Notes under the pieces: model-generated | What the model saw: only the letters and a program-made list of their open reading frames with translations | Told to the model about the DNA's origin: nothing | Database searches by the model: none | Translations under genes and position numbers: made by a program | Assembly: GCF_016598475.1 (NCBI RefSeq) | Contig: NZ_JAEMUX010000033.1 | Span: forward strand, 1 to 64,000 | Direction: 5' to 3' | From: Streptomyces adelaidensis | Lineage (GTDB): Bacteria; Actinomycetota; Actinomycetes; Streptomycetales; Streptomycetaceae | DNA length: 64,000 nucleotides | Shown: piece by piece, positions 1,885 through 51,367 of the stretch | Layout: each line of letters starts with the position of its first letter | Numbering within the stretch: position 1 is the first letter of the stretch

Positions 1885-3291
1885 ATGTCGGTAGGCGAAG
1901 AGGTTCGCTCGCAGCAGGACAAGCCGCAGCAGAGTCTCGGCACGGCCGCTGCCCGGAACCTGGCCACCACCACGAAGTCCGCGCCCCAGATGCAGGAGAT
2001 CAGCTCGCGCTGGCTGCTGCGCAACCTGCCCTGGGTGAATGTGCAGGGCGGCACGTACCGGGTGAACCGGCGGCTCACCTACGCGGTCGGCGACGGCCGC
2101 GTCACTTTTGTGAAGACCGGCGACCGGGTCGCCGTGATCCCCGCGGAGCTGGGCGAACTGCCGGCCCTGCGGACCTACGAGGACATCGAGGTGCTGGGCG
2201 AGCTGGCCCAGCGGTGCGAGCAGCGGGAGTTCGCACCCGGCGATGTGCTGGGCGAGTTCGGCAGCCGGGCCGAGGAGGTGTTCCTGCTCGCGCACGGCAA
2301 GGTCGAGAAGATCGGCACCGGACCTTATGGAGACGACGCGGTCCTCGGAGTTCTGGCCGACGGGGCCTACTTCGGCGACCAGGCGCTGCTGGACGACGAC
2401 GCGATCTGGGAGTACACGGCCCGCGCGGTCACCGCGTGCACGGTGCTCGTCCTGCCACGTCGGGCCGTCGAACAGCTCGCGGAGCGCGCCGAGACCCTGA
2501 GCGCGCACCTTCAGGAGCAGCGTGCCATCCCGTCGCAGCGCACCAACACCTACGGCGAGAAGGAGATCGACCTCGCCGCCGGCCACAGCGGTGAGCCGGA
2601 CATCCCGCACACCTTCGTCGACTACGAGGCGGCGCCGCGCGAGTACGAACTGAGCGTCGCCCAGACCGTCCTGCGCATCCACACGCGCGTGGCCGACCTC
2701 TACAACCAGCCGATGAACCAGACCGAGCAGCAGGTCCGGCTCACCGTCGAGGCGTTGAAGGAACGCCAGGAGCACGAGCTCATCAACAACCGCGAGTTCG
2801 GCCTCCTCCACAACTGCGAGTACGACCAGCGGCTCCAGCCGCACGACGGCGTGCCCAGCCCGGACGACCTGGACGAACTGCTCACCCGCCGCCGGGGCAC
2901 CAAGCTGCTGCTCGCCCACCCGCGCGCGATCTCCGCGTTCGGCCGCGAACTCAACAAGCGCGGACTGGTCCCGGAGACCATCGACATCGCCGGCAACCGC
3001 ATCCCGACCTGGCGCGGGGTGCCGATCTACCCGTGCAACAAGATCCCGGTGACCGAGGCCAGGACCACCTCGATCATCGCCATGCGTACCGGCGAGGACG
3101 ACCAGGGCGTCATCGGGCTGCGGGCCGCGAACATCCCGGACGAGATCGAGCCCAGCCTGTCCGTCCGCTACATGGGCATCAACGAACAGGCGATCATCAA
3201 GTACCTCGTGACGGCCTACTACTCGGCCGCGGTCCTGGTCCCCGACGCGCTCGGCGTTCTGGAGAACGTCGAGATCGGCCGCTGGCGGTGA
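1885..3291 (+). CDS. family 2B encapsulin nanocompartment shell protein (cNMP-binding domain plus HK97-fold)
   Basis: A 468-residue encapsulin shell protein of family 2B, which self-assembles into an icosahedral protein compartment. Residues ~36-90 ([20 protein letters not shown] onward) are the N-terminal arm and first HK97 segment. Residues ~95-208 are a cyclic-nucleotide-binding domain ([30 protein letters not shown]). Residues ~240-468 are the rest of the HK97 coat fold, including the hallmark [23 protein letters not shown] and [26 protein letters not shown] blocks. The ATG at 1885 is chosen because GGAGGGG lies 7 bases upstream; the frame stays open earlier without a site. The prenyl-synthase gene follows directly and is the likely cargo. 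Cyclic-nucleotide control of the shell is a family hypothesis, not shown here. Confidence 0.93.
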
Positions 3292-3332
3292 CCTTGGCCG
3301 ACCGGACGCCGTGTCCCCGCCCGTCAGGGCGG

Positions 3333-4595
3333 GTGCACCCAGGGAGCACACCGGAAAGGCGGAGCCCCATCACGATTCCCTCGGACCCGACGGGTGGTGC
3401 GGAGCCGGCGGGAGGCGGGGAACCGACCGGAGCCGTGGCTCCGGCGCGGGTGGTGGCTCCGGGCGCGGTGACTCCCGCCGGCGAGCGGGGACCGGGCGGC
3501 GGGCCGGGTGCGCCGGGGCGGCTCGACGGGCCGGGCACACGCGGGTCGTCGGACGGGCCGGGCACACCGGGTTCGTTGGACGGGCAGGAGGCTGCGGTCA
3601 TCCTGGAGCAGGCGCGGATCTCCGTCGATCCCGAACTGCGCCGTGCCATCGAGTCGTTGCCCGGCTCGATGCGCCGGGTCGCGCGCTACCACTTCGGCTG
3701 GGAGCACGCGGACGGCACCCCGGCCACGGGCAACGCGGGCAAGGCGATACGCCCCGCGCTGGTCCTGGCCGCGGTCGCCGCGCTCGGCGGCCGTGAGTCC
3801 GTCGCCGTACGGGCCGCCGCCGCGGTGGAGCTGATCCACAACTTCACGCTGCTGCACGACGACGTGATGGACCGGGACGCCACCCGCAGACACCGGGCCA
3901 CCGCGTGGACCGTGTTCGGCATCCCCGACGCGATCCTCGCAGGGGACGCGTTACAGGCCCTGGCGCAGCAGTTGCTCGCCGAGGACCCGCATCCGGCGTC
4001 GGCCGCGGCTTCCGCGCGGCTCGCTTCCTGTGTCGTCGAGCTGTGCGCCGGACAGCACACGGACACGGAGATGGAGGGGCGCGGTCCGCAGGAGGTCACT
4101 CTCGACGAGGTGCTGGCGATGGCCGAGGCGAAGACGGGCGCGTTGCTCGGCTGCGCCTGTGCGCTGGGCGCGTTGTACGCGGGCGCCGACGAGGAGGACG
4201 TCGAGGCCCTGGACGCGTTCGGTCGGGAGGCCGGGCTGGCCTTCCAGCTCATCGACGACGTCATCGGCATCTGGGGGGACCCGAGCCGCACGGGCAAGCC
4301 GGCCGGGGCGGACCTCATGGTCCGCAAGAAGTCCCTCCCGGTGGTCGCCGCGCTGGCTTCCGGCACCCCGGAGGCGGCCGAACTGGCCGAGCTGTACGGA
4401 CTGCCGTACGAGGAGGGGGATCTGGAGCGCACGGCGTTGGTGGTGGAGCGGGCGGGCGGTCGCGACTGGGCACAGATCCAGGCCGCCGATCGCATGGCCC
4501 GGGCCATGCACGAACTGTCCCGCGCGGTACCGGATCCGGCGGCGGCCGGAGGGCTTCTCGCGCTGGCCGAGTTCGTGACGCGACGAAGTAGTTGA
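3333..4595 (+). CDS. family 2 encapsulin cargo-type polyprenyl diphosphate synthase
   Basis: An isoprenyl diphosphate synthase with an N-terminal extension of ~90 residues rich in Gly, Pro and Ala, typical of disordered cargo-loading segments in family 2 encapsulin systems. In the catalytic part the first Asp-rich motif is LLHDDVMD (near residue 176) and the second is LIDDVIGIWGD (near residue 308), with Gly where the last Asp of DDxxD often sits. Phe five residues before the first DDxxD suggests a C15-C20 rather than long-chain product. The start is uncertain: there is no in-frame ATG. GTG 3333 is given here, but GGAAAGGCGGAG (3353-3364) sits just before in-frame ATC 3369 and ATT 3375, and GTG 3435 is also possible. 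A TTA codon at 3951-3953 suggests bldA dependence. Confidence 0.88.
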   Translation: MHPGSTPERRSPITIPSDPTGGAEPAGGGEPTGAVAPARVVAPGAVTPAGERGPGGGPGAPGRLDGPGTRGSSDGPGTPGSLDGQEAAVILEQARISVDPELRRAIESLPGSMRRVARYHFGWEHADGTPATGNAGKAIRPALVLAAVAALGGRESVAVRAAAAVELIHNFTLLHDDVMDRDATRRHRATAWTVFGIPDAILAGDALQALAQQLLAEDPHPASAAASARLASCVVELCAGQHTDTEMEGRGPQEVTLDEVLAMAEAKTGALLGCACALGALYAGADEEDVEALDAFGREAGLAFQLIDDVIGIWGDPSRTGKPAGADLMVRKKSLPVVAALASGTPEAAELAELYGLPYEEGDLERTALVVERAGGRDWAQIQAADRMARAMHELSRAVPDPAAAGGLLALAEFVTRRSS

Positions 4596-46947: not shown

Positions 46948-47632
46948 CCGCCGGCCGCGGCGAGGGTGGCCGGCGGTCCGTGGAAGGCGACCCGGCCGGC
47001 GGGCGACAGGACGGTGGCGTCGTCGCAGGCGCCTTCCGTGTCCTCCATGAGGTGCGTCGACACGACCACGCAGGCCCAGCGGCCCAACCGCCGTACGAGG
47101 GCGTGGAAGTCGGATCGCCGACGGGGGCCGAGACCGGTCGTCGGCTCGTCGGCTCGTCGAGGAGGAGCAGGGCGGGTGAGTTGACGATGGCCTGGGTGAT
47201 GCCGGCGCGCTGCTCCATGCCGTCGGAGAGGGTCCGGAGTCTGTGGCCGAGGCGGTCGCGCAGGCCGACGGCTTCCGCCGCACTGGTGACCGCCTTCGGG
47301 ACGCGCCGACCTGGCATCTCGCGCAACCAGGCCGCGTAGGACAGGAACTCGCGGACCGCGCAGCCGCGGAACACGCCGAATTCCTGCGGGAGACAGCCGA
47401 GACGGCGCCGGATTTCGAGACGTTGCGCCGGGACGCGGGGGTCGCGGTCCAGGAGGCTCACCGAGCCCTCGGTGGGGGCGGTCGTGGTGGCGAGGACCCG
47501 GAGGAGAGTGGACTTTCCGGCGCCGTTGGGGCCGAGGACGGCGTGGACGCCCACGCCGGGGGTGAGGGTGAGGGTCAGATCGTCGAGGATCAGGGCGCGG
47601 CGGCGTACGGAGAGACGGTCGGTGTGAGTCAC
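46923..47632 (-). pseudogene. ABC transporter ATP-binding gene disrupted by an 8-bp tandem duplication
   Basis: It starts at GTG 47632 and reads as a normal ABC ATPase through Walker A (LGPNGAGKSTLLRVLA), CLPQEFGVF, the signature-like LSDGMEQRAGITQAIV and Walker B LLLLDEPT. There GGCTCGTC is present twice (47143-47150 and 47151-47158). Dropping one copy restores TTGLGPRRRSDFHALVRRLG, then CVVVSTHLMEDTEGACDDAT and a natural stop at 46923. As written, the frame shifts into junk. No partner permease gene is next to it. A slippage mutant, a phase-variable gene, or a sequencing error. Confidence 0.85.
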
Positions 47633-47891
47633 CGGGGCCCCGGGGTGGGCGGGGGTGCTGAAGGCGTGGTGGCGGAGGTAGAGGAGTTCTACGAGTACGG
47701 CGGCGCCGATGGCCCTGATCCGGGTGCGGGCGGCGGGTCGGTGCAGGACCGGCACCCGGGAAACGTGGTCATGCGGCGTCGGTGGCCGTCGGTCGATCGG
47801 GCCGTCAGGTCCTCAGGGACGGGGGTGTGCGCCGGTGGTGCGGGCACGGCCCGCGCGCCGGTCAGGCCGGGGGCGCGCGCTGCCCCCGGCC

Positions 47892-48536
47892 TCAGCCCGT
47901 GAACCTCGCGCTCGTCAGCGGCGCCACCACCGCCCAGCCCAAGGACTCGTACAGTGCCCGCCCGTCCGGTGTTCCACCCAACACCCCTGTCTCCGCGCCC
48001 AGCTCGGCGGCGGCCTGGGCCAGGGTGCGCATGACGAGGGTGCCGAGGCCGCGGCGGCGGTGGGCCGGGGAGGTCTCGATCTGGTCCACGACCGCCGTCC
48101 TCCCCGTCGGCGCGATCTGGCCGCGCGCGGCCAGGGAGCCGTCCGGCGCTGCGACCATCACCCGGGTCACGCCGCCGCGCGACCAGGTGCGCAACCGGTA
48201 GCCGTCGGGGGCGGGGGGCGGGGTCTCATCCGCCTTCAGTCGTACGGACATCAGGTACCCCGGCTCCGGGTCGACCCACCAGCCCTCGCCCAGCCAGGGG
48301 GTCACCCTCTGTGGCTCCGCGAACACCTTGAGCCAGACCCCCGCTCCGGTGACCGCGTCCGCCACCTTCCGGACGGTCGCTTCCTCCACCTCGTCGCCCG
48401 TCGCGGAGAAGACGTGGCGGGTGACGTGGTGGGCCATGCCCATGTCGATCGTGCAGCCCCAGGGCTCGGCCGCCGGGGGCGCCGCGCCACGCGATACGAC
48501 CCATCCGTCGACCCAGGCCCGCACGATTCCGTCCAC
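47892..48536 (-). CDS. GNAT family N-acetyltransferase
   Basis: A 214-residue protein. The C-terminal ~90 residues are a GNAT fold: VDQIETSPAHRRRGLGTLVMRTLAQ holds the acetyl-CoA loop (RRRGLG), then GVLGGTPDGRALYESLGW. The N-terminal half (MDGIVRAWVDGWVVSRGAAP) is family-specific. The start is GTG 48536. Acceptor unknown. Confidence 0.87.
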   Translation of the reverse strand: MDGIVRAWVDGWVVSRGAAPPAAEPWGCTIDMGMAHHVTRHVFSATGDEVEEATVRKVADAVTGAGVWLKVFAEPQRVTPWLGEGWWVDPEPGYLMSVRLKADETPPPAPDGYRLRTWSRGGVTRVMVAAPDGSLAARGQIAPTGRTAVVDQIETSPAHRRRGLGTLVMRTLAQAAAELGAETGVLGGTPDGRALYESLGWAVVAPLTSARFTG

Positions 48537-48664
48537 CGCGACTCCATGTGTGTAATAGGTGTGATTGACCTAAGGGTATTACGTCGACTGCGTGCCCGTA
48601 TCCCTGCGGTGATCGCCCACAGCGAACGCACGCTCTCCCGGGGAACATTCCTCCGCTCAGCTGC

Positions 48665-48685
48665 ATTGAGTCGGCATTGCTCAAC
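48665..48685 (+). promoter_or_regulatory. HAIR-type HspR box upstream of lon
   Basis: TTGAGT (48666-48671), a 7-base spacer and GCTCAA (48679-48684) match the HAIR consensus CTTGAGT-N7-ACTCAAG at 11 of 14 positions. It lies 22 bp before the lon start. HspR control of lon is established in Streptomyces. Confidence 0.88.
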
Positions 48686-48706
48686 TTGACTGCCTGAGGA
48701 GAGATC

Positions 48707-51109
48707 ATGGCTTCGACGTCCGCACCGCTCACTCTGCCCGTGCTGCCGCTCGACGAAGAGGTCGTGCTGCCGGGCATGGTGGTGCCGTTGGACCTCAATG
48801 ACACGGATGTACGGGCCGCGGTGGAGGCCGCGCAGGCGGCGGCGCGGGCGGAGTCCGGCAAGCCGCGGGTGCTGCTGGTGCCGCGGATCGACGGGGCGTA
48901 CGCGGGCACGGGTGTGCTCGGGACCGTCGAGCAGGTCGGACGGCTGGCCGACGGGGATCCCGGGGCGCTCATCCGCGCGATCGGACGGGTGCGGATCGGG
49001 GCCGGGACGACCGGGCCCGGCGTCGCGCTGTGGGTCGAGGGGACGCGGTTCGACGAGAGCGTGCCGGAGCCGCTGCCCGGCCATGCCGGTGAACTCGTCA
49101 AGGAGTACAAGGCACTCGCCACCAGCTGGCTGCGCAAGCGCGGCGCCTGGCAGGTCGTGGACCGCGTCCAGGCCATCGACGACGTCTCCGCGCTCGCCGA
49201 CAACTCCGGATACTCGCCCTTCCTGACCACCGAGCAGAAGGTGCTGCTCCTGGAGACGGCCGACCCGATCGCCCGGCTGAAGCTCGCCACCCAGCAGCTG
49301 CGCGACCACCTCGCGGAGCAGGACGTCGCCGAGACCATCGCCAAGGACGTCCAGGAAGGCGTCGACAAGCAGCAGCGCGACTTCCTGTTGCGCCGCCAGC
49401 TCGAAGCCGTACGCAAGGAACTGCGCGAGCTGAACGGGGAGAAGGACGGCGAGGAGTCGGACGACTACCGGGCGCGCGTCGAGGCCGCCGATCTGCCTCA
49501 GACGGTACGGGAGGCCGCGCTCAAGGAGGTCGACAAGCTGGAGCGGTCCAGCGACCAGTCGCCCGAGGGCGGCTGGATCCGTACCTGGCTGGACACGGTT
49601 CTCGAGCTTCCCTGGAACGAGCGGACCGAGGACTCGTACGACATCCAGGGCGCCAAGGCCGTGCTCGACGCCGAGCACGCGGGTCTGGAGGACGTGAAGG
49701 AGCGCATCACCGAGTACCTCGCCGTGCGCAAGCGGCGGTCGGAGCGGGGGCTGGGCGTCGTCGGCGGACGGCGCGGCGGCGCTGTGCTCGCCCTCGTCGG
49801 GCCGCCCGGCGTCGGCAAGACCAGCCTCGGCGAGTCCGTGGCGCATGCCATGGGGCGCAAGTTCGTCCGGGTCGCGCTCGGTGGTGTGCGCGACGAGGCG
49901 GAGATCCGCGGACACCGGCGTACGTACGTGGGCGCACTGCCCGGACGGGTCGTCCGGGCCATCAAGGAGGCGGGTTCCATGAACCCCGTCGTCCTCCTCG
50001 ACGAGATCGACAAGGTGGGCTCCGACTACCGGGGCGACCCCGCCGCGGCCCTCCTCGAAGTCCTCGACCCCGCCCAGAACCACACCTTCCGCGACCACTA
50101 CCTGGAAGTGGAACTGGACCTGAGCGACGTCGTCTTCCTCGCCACGGCCAATGTGCTCGAGGCGATTCCGGAGGCGTTGCTCGACCGGATGGAGCTCGTC
50201 CGGCTGGACGGGTACACCGAGGACGAGAAGGTCGTCATCGCCCGGGACCACCTGCTGCCGCGGCAGTTGGAGCGCGCCGGGCTCGCCGCCGACGAGGTCG
50301 CCCTCGACGAGAGCGCGCTGCGCAAGCTCGCCGGTGAGTACACCCGTGAGGCCGGCGTACGGAACCTGGAGCGGTCCGTCGCCCGGCTGCTGCGCAAGGT
50401 GGCGGCCCAGCACGAACTGGGGCGGCGGGAGCTGCCGTTCACCGTCACGGACGGCGATCTGCGCGGCCTCATCGGGCGCCCGCACCACGTGCCCGAGTCG
50501 GCGCAGGACCCGGCGGAGCGGCGGACGGCCGTGCCGGGTGTCGCGACCGGCCTCGCGGTCACCGGCGCGGGCGGCGACGTCCTCTACGTCGAGGCGTCGC
50601 TCGCCGACCCGGAGACCGGCGCGGCGGGGCTGACCCTCACCGGCCAGCTGGGCGACGTGATGAAGGAGTCCGCGCAGATCGCCCTCTCCTTCCTGCGCTC
50701 GCACGGCGCGGAGTTGGAGCTGCCCGTCGCCGACCTCAAGGACCGGGGCGTGCACATCCACTTCCCGGCGGGCGCGGTCCCCAAGGACGGCCCGAGCGCC
50801 GGCGTCACCATGACGACGGCCCTCGCCTCGCTCCTGTCCGGGCGGCTCGTCCGTACGGATGTGGCGATGACGGGTGAGGTCTCGCTGACGGGGCGGGTGC
50901 TGCCCATCGGCGGCGTCAAGCAGAAGCTGCTCGCCGCGCACCGGGCCGGCGTCACCACCGTCGTCATCCCCAAGCGCAACGAGCCCGACCTCGACGACGT
51001 CCCCGCCGAGGTCCTCGACAAGCTCGACGTCCACGCCGTCACGGACGTACGCCAGGTGCTGGAGCTGGCGCTCGCTCCGGCGGCCGTGGAGGTGCCGGTG
51101 GCCGCCTGA
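48707..51109 (+). CDS. lon: ATP-dependent protease Lon
   Basis: An 800-residue Lon (endopeptidase La), the heat-shock protease for damaged and regulatory proteins. Residues ~8-200 are the substrate-binding LON domain (LPVLPLDEEVVLPGMVVPLD). The AAA module has Walker A GPPGVGKTSLGESVA (near 364) and Walker B VVLLDEIDKVGSDYRGDP. The protease domain has Ser-Lys dyad blocks KDGPSAGVTMTTALASLLSG (Ser near 704) and GGVKQKLLAAHRAG (Lys near 747). GAGGAGAG precedes the ATG. Confidence 0.98.
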   Translation: MASTSAPLTLPVLPLDEEVVLPGMVVPLDLNDTDVRAAVEAAQAAARAESGKPRVLLVPRIDGAYAGTGVLGTVEQVGRLADGDPGALIRAIGRVRIGAGTTGPGVALWVEGTRFDESVPEPLPGHAGELVKEYKALATSWLRKRGAWQVVDRVQAIDDVSALADNSGYSPFLTTEQKVLLLETADPIARLKLATQQLRDHLAEQDVAETIAKDVQEGVDKQQRDFLLRRQLEAVRKELRELNGEKDGEESDDYRARVEAADLPQTVREAALKEVDKLERSSDQSPEGGWIRTWLDTVLELPWNERTEDSYDIQGAKAVLDAEHAGLEDVKERITEYLAVRKRRSERGLGVVGGRRGGAVLALVGPPGVGKTSLGESVAHAMGRKFVRVALGGVRDEAEIRGHRRTYVGALPGRVVRAIKEAGSMNPVVLLDEIDKVGSDYRGDPAAALLEVLDPAQNHTFRDHYLEVELDLSDVVFLATANVLEAIPEALLDRMELVRLDGYTEDEKVVIARDHLLPRQLERAGLAADEVALDESALRKLAGEYTREAGVRNLERSVARLLRKVAAQHELGRRELPFTVTDGDLRGLIGRPHHVPESAQDPAERRTAVPGVATGLAVTGAGGDVLYVEASLADPETGAAGLTLTGQLGDVMKESAQIALSFLRSHGAELELPVADLKDRGVHIHFPAGAVPKDGPSAGVTMTTALASLLSGRLVRTDVAMTGEVSLTGRVLPIGGVKQKLLAAHRAGVTTVVIPKRNEPDLDDVPAEVLDKLDVHAVTDVRQVLELALAPAAVEVPVAA

Positions 51110-51203
51110 CCCCGACGGCTGCTCCGCGAGGCGCGGCCGCGCCAGGCACGGCGGCTCCACAAGGCTCCGGTGGTGGTGTGACGGACACCCACCGGAGGGG
51201 AGA

Positions 51204-51234
51204 AGGCCCGGGTCCCGTGAAGGGGTCCGGGCCT
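51204..51234 (+). terminator. lon terminator hairpin
   Basis: A 13-bp stem with two G-T pairs (51204-51216 with 51222-51234) and a GTGAA loop, followed by TCTCCTT, 95 bp past the lon stop. Confidence 0.75.
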
Positions 51235-51367
51235 CTCCTTCGCGCCGGCCGGGTGAAGGGTTGTCGGCCGACGGCCCCATCCTGCGAAATACTTGCGCTG
51301 CTGCCGGCAATGGCGGTCTTCGGCGGAAATTTCTCAGAGACGCGGCATCGACATCAGGAGCACCGAC

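Follow-up and report, generated by a model that had tools for sequence, protein, structure and literature searches.

The closest described relatives of the locus considered here are operons that pair a family 2B encapsulin shell with a polyprenyl transferase (PT). According to the accessible part of one survey (PMC8049743), the commonest neighbor of family 2b shell genes is a polyprenyl diphosphate synthase gene. Extracts from a second (PMC8346489) put the number of family 2B operons that contain a polyprenyl transferase at 900, with 888 of these in Actinobacteria, and count 165 systems that hold both a terpene cyclase and a polyprenyl transferase. The N-termini of PT cargo are described in the same extracts as disordered, 50–100 residues in length and devoid of a recognizable targeting motif; a GPTGLGTSAAR motif is reported there for terpene cyclase cargo. 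In Streptomyces lydicus, the available sections of a structural paper (PMC12407261) report that Sl-Enc2 alone forms 28 nm, T=1 shells, that Sl-Enc1 alone does not assemble, and that the insert domain of family 2B shells is located above the two-fold pores. EshA, the shell-type protein of the 2-methylisoborneol (2-MIB) operon, affects ppGpp and development, as excerpts from two papers relate (PMC6428758, PMC6627660). Among the open-licence papers listed, no report on purified PT-type particles and no biochemical study of this encapsulin class was found.

The shell and synthase genes discussed below (Table 1) lie in the window, i.e., the 64,000-nucleotide stretch that was analyzed, which was taken from the very start of contig C257 in the 9.3-Mb genome of Streptomyces adelaidensis. 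The pair itself is of a known kind, an ordinary and widespread representative of the described encapsulin class; what is new from comparing it with its relatives is a set of loci that keep the shell without the synthase. For the widespread Streptomyces locus as a whole, the most likely picture is that the shell protein assembles on its own, as a T=1 particle about 28 nm across, and encloses the prenyl diphosphate synthase encoded next to it. IPP and allylic diphosphates would pass in through the shell pores, and from them the enclosed enzyme would make GGPP (C20) or a chain of similar length.

Table 1. Features of the shell–synthase locus, in window coordinates.
Feature	Position	Strand	Basis
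Family 2B encapsulin shell protein, 468 aa, ATG start	1885..3291	+	NF041163, Pfam domains, 9bhu/9bje/9bix
N-arm segment of shell, residues 17-37	1933..1995	+	Column counts in 92 shells
Cyclic-nucleotide-binding-like insert of shell	2224..2487	+	PF00027
Trp175 at the phosphate-cassette Arg position of the insert	2407-2409	+	Alignment, column counts
Polyprenyl diphosphate synthase, encapsulin cargo type, 435 aa from GTG 3288 (inferred start)	3288..4595	+	PF00348, NF041169, fold model
Disordered Gly/Pro/Ala-rich N-terminal tail of synthase, residues 1-96	3288..3575	+	pLDDT
Conserved segment DGQEAAVILEQA, residues 98-109, start of helix 1	3579..3614	+	Column counts, 107 synthases

The shell protein scores 765.6 bits against the curated NCBIfam model NF041163 (encap_f2b; cut-off 400), and the preliminary description's placement of it in family 2B is borne out by its domain content as well. 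A SrpI-like Pfam domain (PF19307, 449.8 bits) covers residues 216-466, and a cNMP_binding match (PF00027, 62.1-65.8 bits) is inserted ahead of it at residues 114-201; as judged from these matches, the protein carries the HK97-type, SrpI-family shell domain with the cyclic-nucleotide-binding-like insertion of family 2B. The sequences of three solved shells (9bhu, 9bje and 9bix) are also near full-length matches. The family assignments of both the shell and the synthase rest on scores far beyond chance. Structure prediction, which had been proposed as a check, gave a poor model of the shell (mean pLDDT 50.6), so that its HK97 fold rests on sequence. The N-arm is highly conserved among 92 shells at all positions from 17 to 37 save 21 and 33. 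The part of this arm at window 1933-1977, with its LGTxAAR, resembles the terpene cyclase motif quoted above, possibly by chance.

The insert domain merits separate consideration. When the shell is aligned with the genome's own Crp-like protein, the phosphate-cassette Arg of the latter falls on Trp175, and the same position is Trp in all 92 aligned shells that were long enough to keep. We take the cassette Arg to be the residue that binds the phosphate of the cyclic nucleotide. The cassette Glu position is Asp in 58 of the 92 shells and Glu in 34. Because the Arg is replaced throughout, and because the structural paper states, in the part available, that the domains of family 2B lack cyclic-nucleotide binding (PMC12407261), binding of a cyclic nucleotide by the insert is doubtful, and the domain is unlikely to serve as a cNMP binder. 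An opposite indication exists for the related shell EshA, which has been termed a cAMP-binding protein (PMC6627660, in excerpt). A domain of the cNMP type had been anticipated in the shell and is indeed present, but the function that its name implies probably is not.

The synthase matches PF00348 at 197.7 bits and NF041169, the model for the family 2 encapsulin nanocompartment cargo protein polyprenyl transferase, at 495.3 bits (cut-off 450). Its reading frame is open far upstream, into the shell gene, and GTG 3288 is the first in-frame start from about 3198 on. This codon overlaps the shell stop (GTGA) and is the probable start; TTG 3294 and GTG 3333 are alternatives. An AlphaFold model of the protein has a mean pLDDT of 79.7. 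The residues D191, D192 and D195, R200 and R201, K282, and D323 and D324 are invariant across 22 synthases, and by sequence the enzyme appears catalytically intact. The first Asp motif is preceded by Phe (-5) and Thr (-4), a combination that, read through the chain-length rule, would support a GGPP-type product. The nearest named relatives of the synthase are from Streptomyces. A paralog on contig C201 reaches 405.6 bits on NF041169, below the cut-off, and 293 of 295 Streptomyces genomes hold some match at E <= 1e-80, so the margin that separates cargo from paralog is modest.

Both genes are common in the genus. A synthase over the NF041169 cut-off occurs in 227 of the 295 Streptomyces genomes and in none of 14 control genomes, and the PT-type shell (E <= 1e-225) occurs in 240. 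The pairing of a cargo-family prenyl synthase with the shell, as first described for the window, holds across the relatives: the shell is present in 77/77 named loci for which the sequence reaches 1.5 kb or more upstream of the synthase. The usual gene order among named relatives is PLP-dependent enzyme and amidase (both reverse), followed by shell, synthase and GNAT acetyltransferase (all forward); beyond the GNAT gene lie varying sets of TetR-like, RibD-like, YCII, glyoxalase and AraC-like genes, the TetR and AraC names having been assigned by eye. The GNAT gene lies downstream of the synthase in 54 of the 76 named loci that extend 1.5 kb or more on that side. It runs in the same direction as the synthase in many relatives, is also present in L148 (5620-6237), and is missing from the window. 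The reported absence of an adjacent terpene cyclase gene was confirmed for the entire contig (PF19086, E <= 0.001); the genome's four PF19086 matches lie on contigs C335 (two), C57 and C13. This absence was considered as a special feature of the locus and rejected, as it is the usual state of PT operons (900 with PT, 165 with both; PMC8346489, in extract). The two surveys had thus already described the arrangement, including the lack of a cyclase.

The N-terminal tail of the synthase had been viewed as the usual sign of a loaded cargo. Its disorder is supported by the AlphaFold model, in which pLDDT falls below 50 at residues 1-6 and 8-96 (numbered from GTG 3288) and the first helix, at residue 97, opens a confident helical domain. 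The protein would therefore possess a disordered extension of the 50-100-residue kind, provided that translation begins at GTG 3288. As a mark of cargo, the tail fares less well. In fourteen loci of the L031 kind the conserved helix follows after only some 10 residues, and in L105 and L110 after about 19-26 (starts inferred in each case), with the same shell type alongside. Moreover, alignment shows that the window synthase is missing the ancestral ATG segment, an M[GA]EF-like start that, close variants included, 33 of the 63 representative tails from the larger synthase group show, and that its tail partly translates through sequence that is untranslated leader in relatives. Owing to the short-tailed relatives and this read-through, a long tail is unreliable as a sign of loading, and comparison of the sequences suggests that it is probably not needed for it. 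At the other extreme, the tails of L061 and L076 show low-complexity Gly/Pro/Ala/Ser expansion to well over 150 residues (starts inferred).

No targeting motif common to all synthase tails was found among the 63 representatives, in an analysis that dropped 15 of 109 loci for misfit to the regular expression and set apart 14 of the remaining 94 as a separate short-tail group. An ERRxPIG-type pattern occurs in 24 of the 63 tails (shuffled mean 3.7, maximum 10); we do not put it forward as a motif, since the pattern was written post hoc and the tails share ancestry. The sole stretch found to be conserved in both synthase groups is a short [DE]G[QH]EAA at the start of helix 1. Among the 107 of 109 synthases that fit the pattern for this segment, D/E is found in 102, G in 92, E/D in 106 and A in 107. 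The GxEAA core is absent from five paralogs of the LLERGR kind (L012, L174-L177), in a comparison to which four more supplied loci (L010, L178-L180) contributed no line.

Loci that have lost one partner of the pair are perhaps the most instructive. Sixty-nine genomes without a synthase over the cut-off were listed by eye, one more than the difference between 295 and 227, such that one entry may in fact pass. In 18 of these, a shell with 73% or higher identity to that of the window is still present, and the loci of 17 were compared (G251 was left out). Eight have no synthase or a remnant, three a broken or shortened one, three a terpene cyclase gene next to that of the shell, and three (L152, L155 and L156) a full-length but diverged synthase. 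Within the first group, no synthase match was detected beside the shell in L148, L151, L154, L162 and L163, which keep at least some of the usual neighbors, or in L159, where the neighborhood is different. L149 has a frameshifted remnant beside the shell, and L150 (5727-6065, + strand) an in-frame, 112-residue remnant in which the tail and the start of helix 1 are fused to the C-terminal helices; it is without the catalytic core, and its NF041169 match is confined to the last 54 residues. The synthase is split over two frames in L160 and over three in L161, and in L164 it is truncated after residue 377 or so; assembly error is possible in all three.

Each of the three cyclase-bearing loci (L153, L157 and L158) has two PF19086 matches, and their cyclases score 1175.6, 812.2 and 1167.3 bits, respectively, on NF041168, under its cut-off of 1200. 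Their PT-type shells occupy separate places on long branches of the shell tree. In genomes G141, G239 and G157, the PT-type shell is the only family 2B shell match at E <= 1e-60. The type of cargo has probably been exchanged in L153, L157 and L158. The reverse situation, a synthase with no shell at threshold, was encountered in four genomes when the list was read by eye. In G130 and G221, the shell is cut by contig ends. In G076 (L170) and G266 (L173), the synthase has been kept and the shell lost from its syntenic place, with a 39-residue shell trace retained in L173; both genomes carry another family 2B shell elsewhere, 63% and 65% identical, respectively.

How the shells have fared without the enzyme was evaluated with a quick tree of 96 shells from 99 loci (L080, L088 and L128 lacked sufficient shell) and with pairwise dN/dS to the nearest synthase-bearing shell, a measure that includes the time before loss. 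The tree leaves 35 of 93 inner branches open, and L159 and the three cyclase-bearing shells sit on long branches of unsure placement. Six changes of the synthase label are needed on it, three of them forced by starred branches, and 84 of 500 label shuffles came out as low. None of the 96 shells has an internal stop. Values of dN/dS range from 0.09 to 0.27 for the eight synthase-less shells, from 0.20 to 0.23 for the three beside a broken or short synthase, and from 0.27 to 0.33 for the three adjacent to cyclases. For control, 77 synthase-bearing shells with dS >0.05 have a median of 0.12 and a maximum of 0.27 (0.267), and the 15 of them with dS >0.3 have a median of 0.16 and a 5-95% range of 0.10-0.22. 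The retained shells are open and mostly under purifying selection. L159, at 0.270, lies above the control maximum and L154, at 0.265, about equals it; these two values may reflect relaxed constraint. Together with the three shells next to cyclases, L154 and L159 reach or exceed the upper end of the control values, which is evidence against strict constancy. The shells of L149 and L150 are sisters, with a dS of 0.35 and a dN/dS of 0.09 between them; as the breakpoints of their synthase remnants differ, the two losses may have been separate.

The idea that the shell exists solely for the synthase is weakened by these persisting shells, and their retention in lineages without the enzyme means that the shell may have a function independent of it. 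It is conceivable, though the odds are somewhat against it, that selection maintains a function of the PT-type Streptomyces shell for which the synthase is unnecessary, given that in several lineages the enzyme has been deleted from syntenic loci with the shell left intact, in G141, G239 and G157 as the sole family 2B shell matched. The competing thought that such shells are relics ahead of decay has an equal, and likewise tentative, claim. Remnants of the synthase are still present in L149 and L150, pairwise dN/dS spans pre-loss time and is compatible with recent loss, and the label is no more clustered than when shuffled, as scattered recent losses would predict. Relics sit less easily with the lack of internal stops and with the low dN/dS between the sisters L149 and L150 at a dS of 0.35, though their losses may be separate. 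The retained shells and the EshA literature together suggest a possible second, cargo-independent role. From its operon, EshA would be the same kind of protein as the window shell, and according to the excerpts available 2-MIB synthesis can proceed without the eshA gene of its operon (PMC6428758), and adequate ppGpp and antibiotic production depend on EshA (PMC6627660).

Taken further, this line of thought would make the shell mainly a developmental or stress particle like EshA, with the synthase as dispensable cargo. In favor of such a particle are the 11 of 17 loci whose shell has no intact synthase beside it, the three more with a cyclase alongside, the dN/dS of the eight synthase-less shells and the two EshA findings, yet we regard it as rather unlikely. 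The synthase exceeds its cut-off in 227/295 genomes and outlasted local shell loss in G076 and G266, the EshA work concerns another subtype, the losses could be recent, and the dN/dS of L159 and L154 may mean relaxed constraint. Less probable still is an arrangement of two functions in one operon, in which a cytosolic synthase is translationally coupled to the shell and is not loaded. It would accommodate the lack of a shared targeting motif, tails that range in length between about 10 residues and about 200 or more, and the two genomes in which the enzyme persists without its own shell; both of these, however, hold another family 2B shell, and the adjacency in 77/77 loci, the existence of a curated cargo family (NF041169) and the naming of terpene cyclases among studied encapsulin cargo (PMC12407261, in its accessible part) speak against it. 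Encapsulation of the synthase by the shell stays the favored reading. Streptomyces has in effect performed natural experiments, with the shell deprived of its enzyme, the enzyme of its shell, and the enzyme swapped for a terpene cyclase, and these make testable both a role of the shell in its own right and the part of the enzyme that is needed for loading, for which the long tail is seemingly dispensable.

Several known systems can be set against the window. The best non-encapsulin model for the synthase is the IdsB-type GGPP synthase (NF045549), whose catalytic domain is alike (369.5 bits), but the window protein falls below the model's cut-off of 475. The 2-methylisoborneol operon (eshA-mibA-mibB) has the family 2B shell in common, but its cargo is a terpene cyclase. 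The same genome encodes such a 2-MIB-type set of shell, cyclase and GPP methyltransferase on contig C13 (L017, about 47480-51280). Its shell scores 711.1 bits on NF041163, the genome's other match over the cut-off, and on the tree a long branch separates it from those of PT type; the methyltransferase scores 454.5 bits (cut-off 400), and since it lies alongside, the cyclase is likely to be a 2-MIB synthase. It is conceivable that the shell proteins of the window and of C13 form mixed shells. The Sl-Enc1/Sl-Enc2 system (PMC12407261, in the sections available) belongs to the same shell family, and 9bje and 9bix, which bear the two motifs described in that paper, give matches of about 610 bits. 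At the first diagnostic motif the window shell has RRRG, which is closer to the Sl-Enc2 sequence (RRRK) than to that of Sl-Enc1 (TVWK), a comparison of few residues. That operon encodes a pair of shell proteins along with a xylulose kinase, whereas the window has one shell gene, the other family 2B shell being on C13. The closest likeness is to the PT operons of the two surveys (PMC8346489, PMC8049743, both in extract), which share the cNMP-like shell insert, the adjoining synthase with a disordered N-terminus, the actinobacterial host and the usual absence of a cyclase; nothing essential differs, and the window's tail is a lineage variant of the same design that has dispensed with the ancestral ATG segment.
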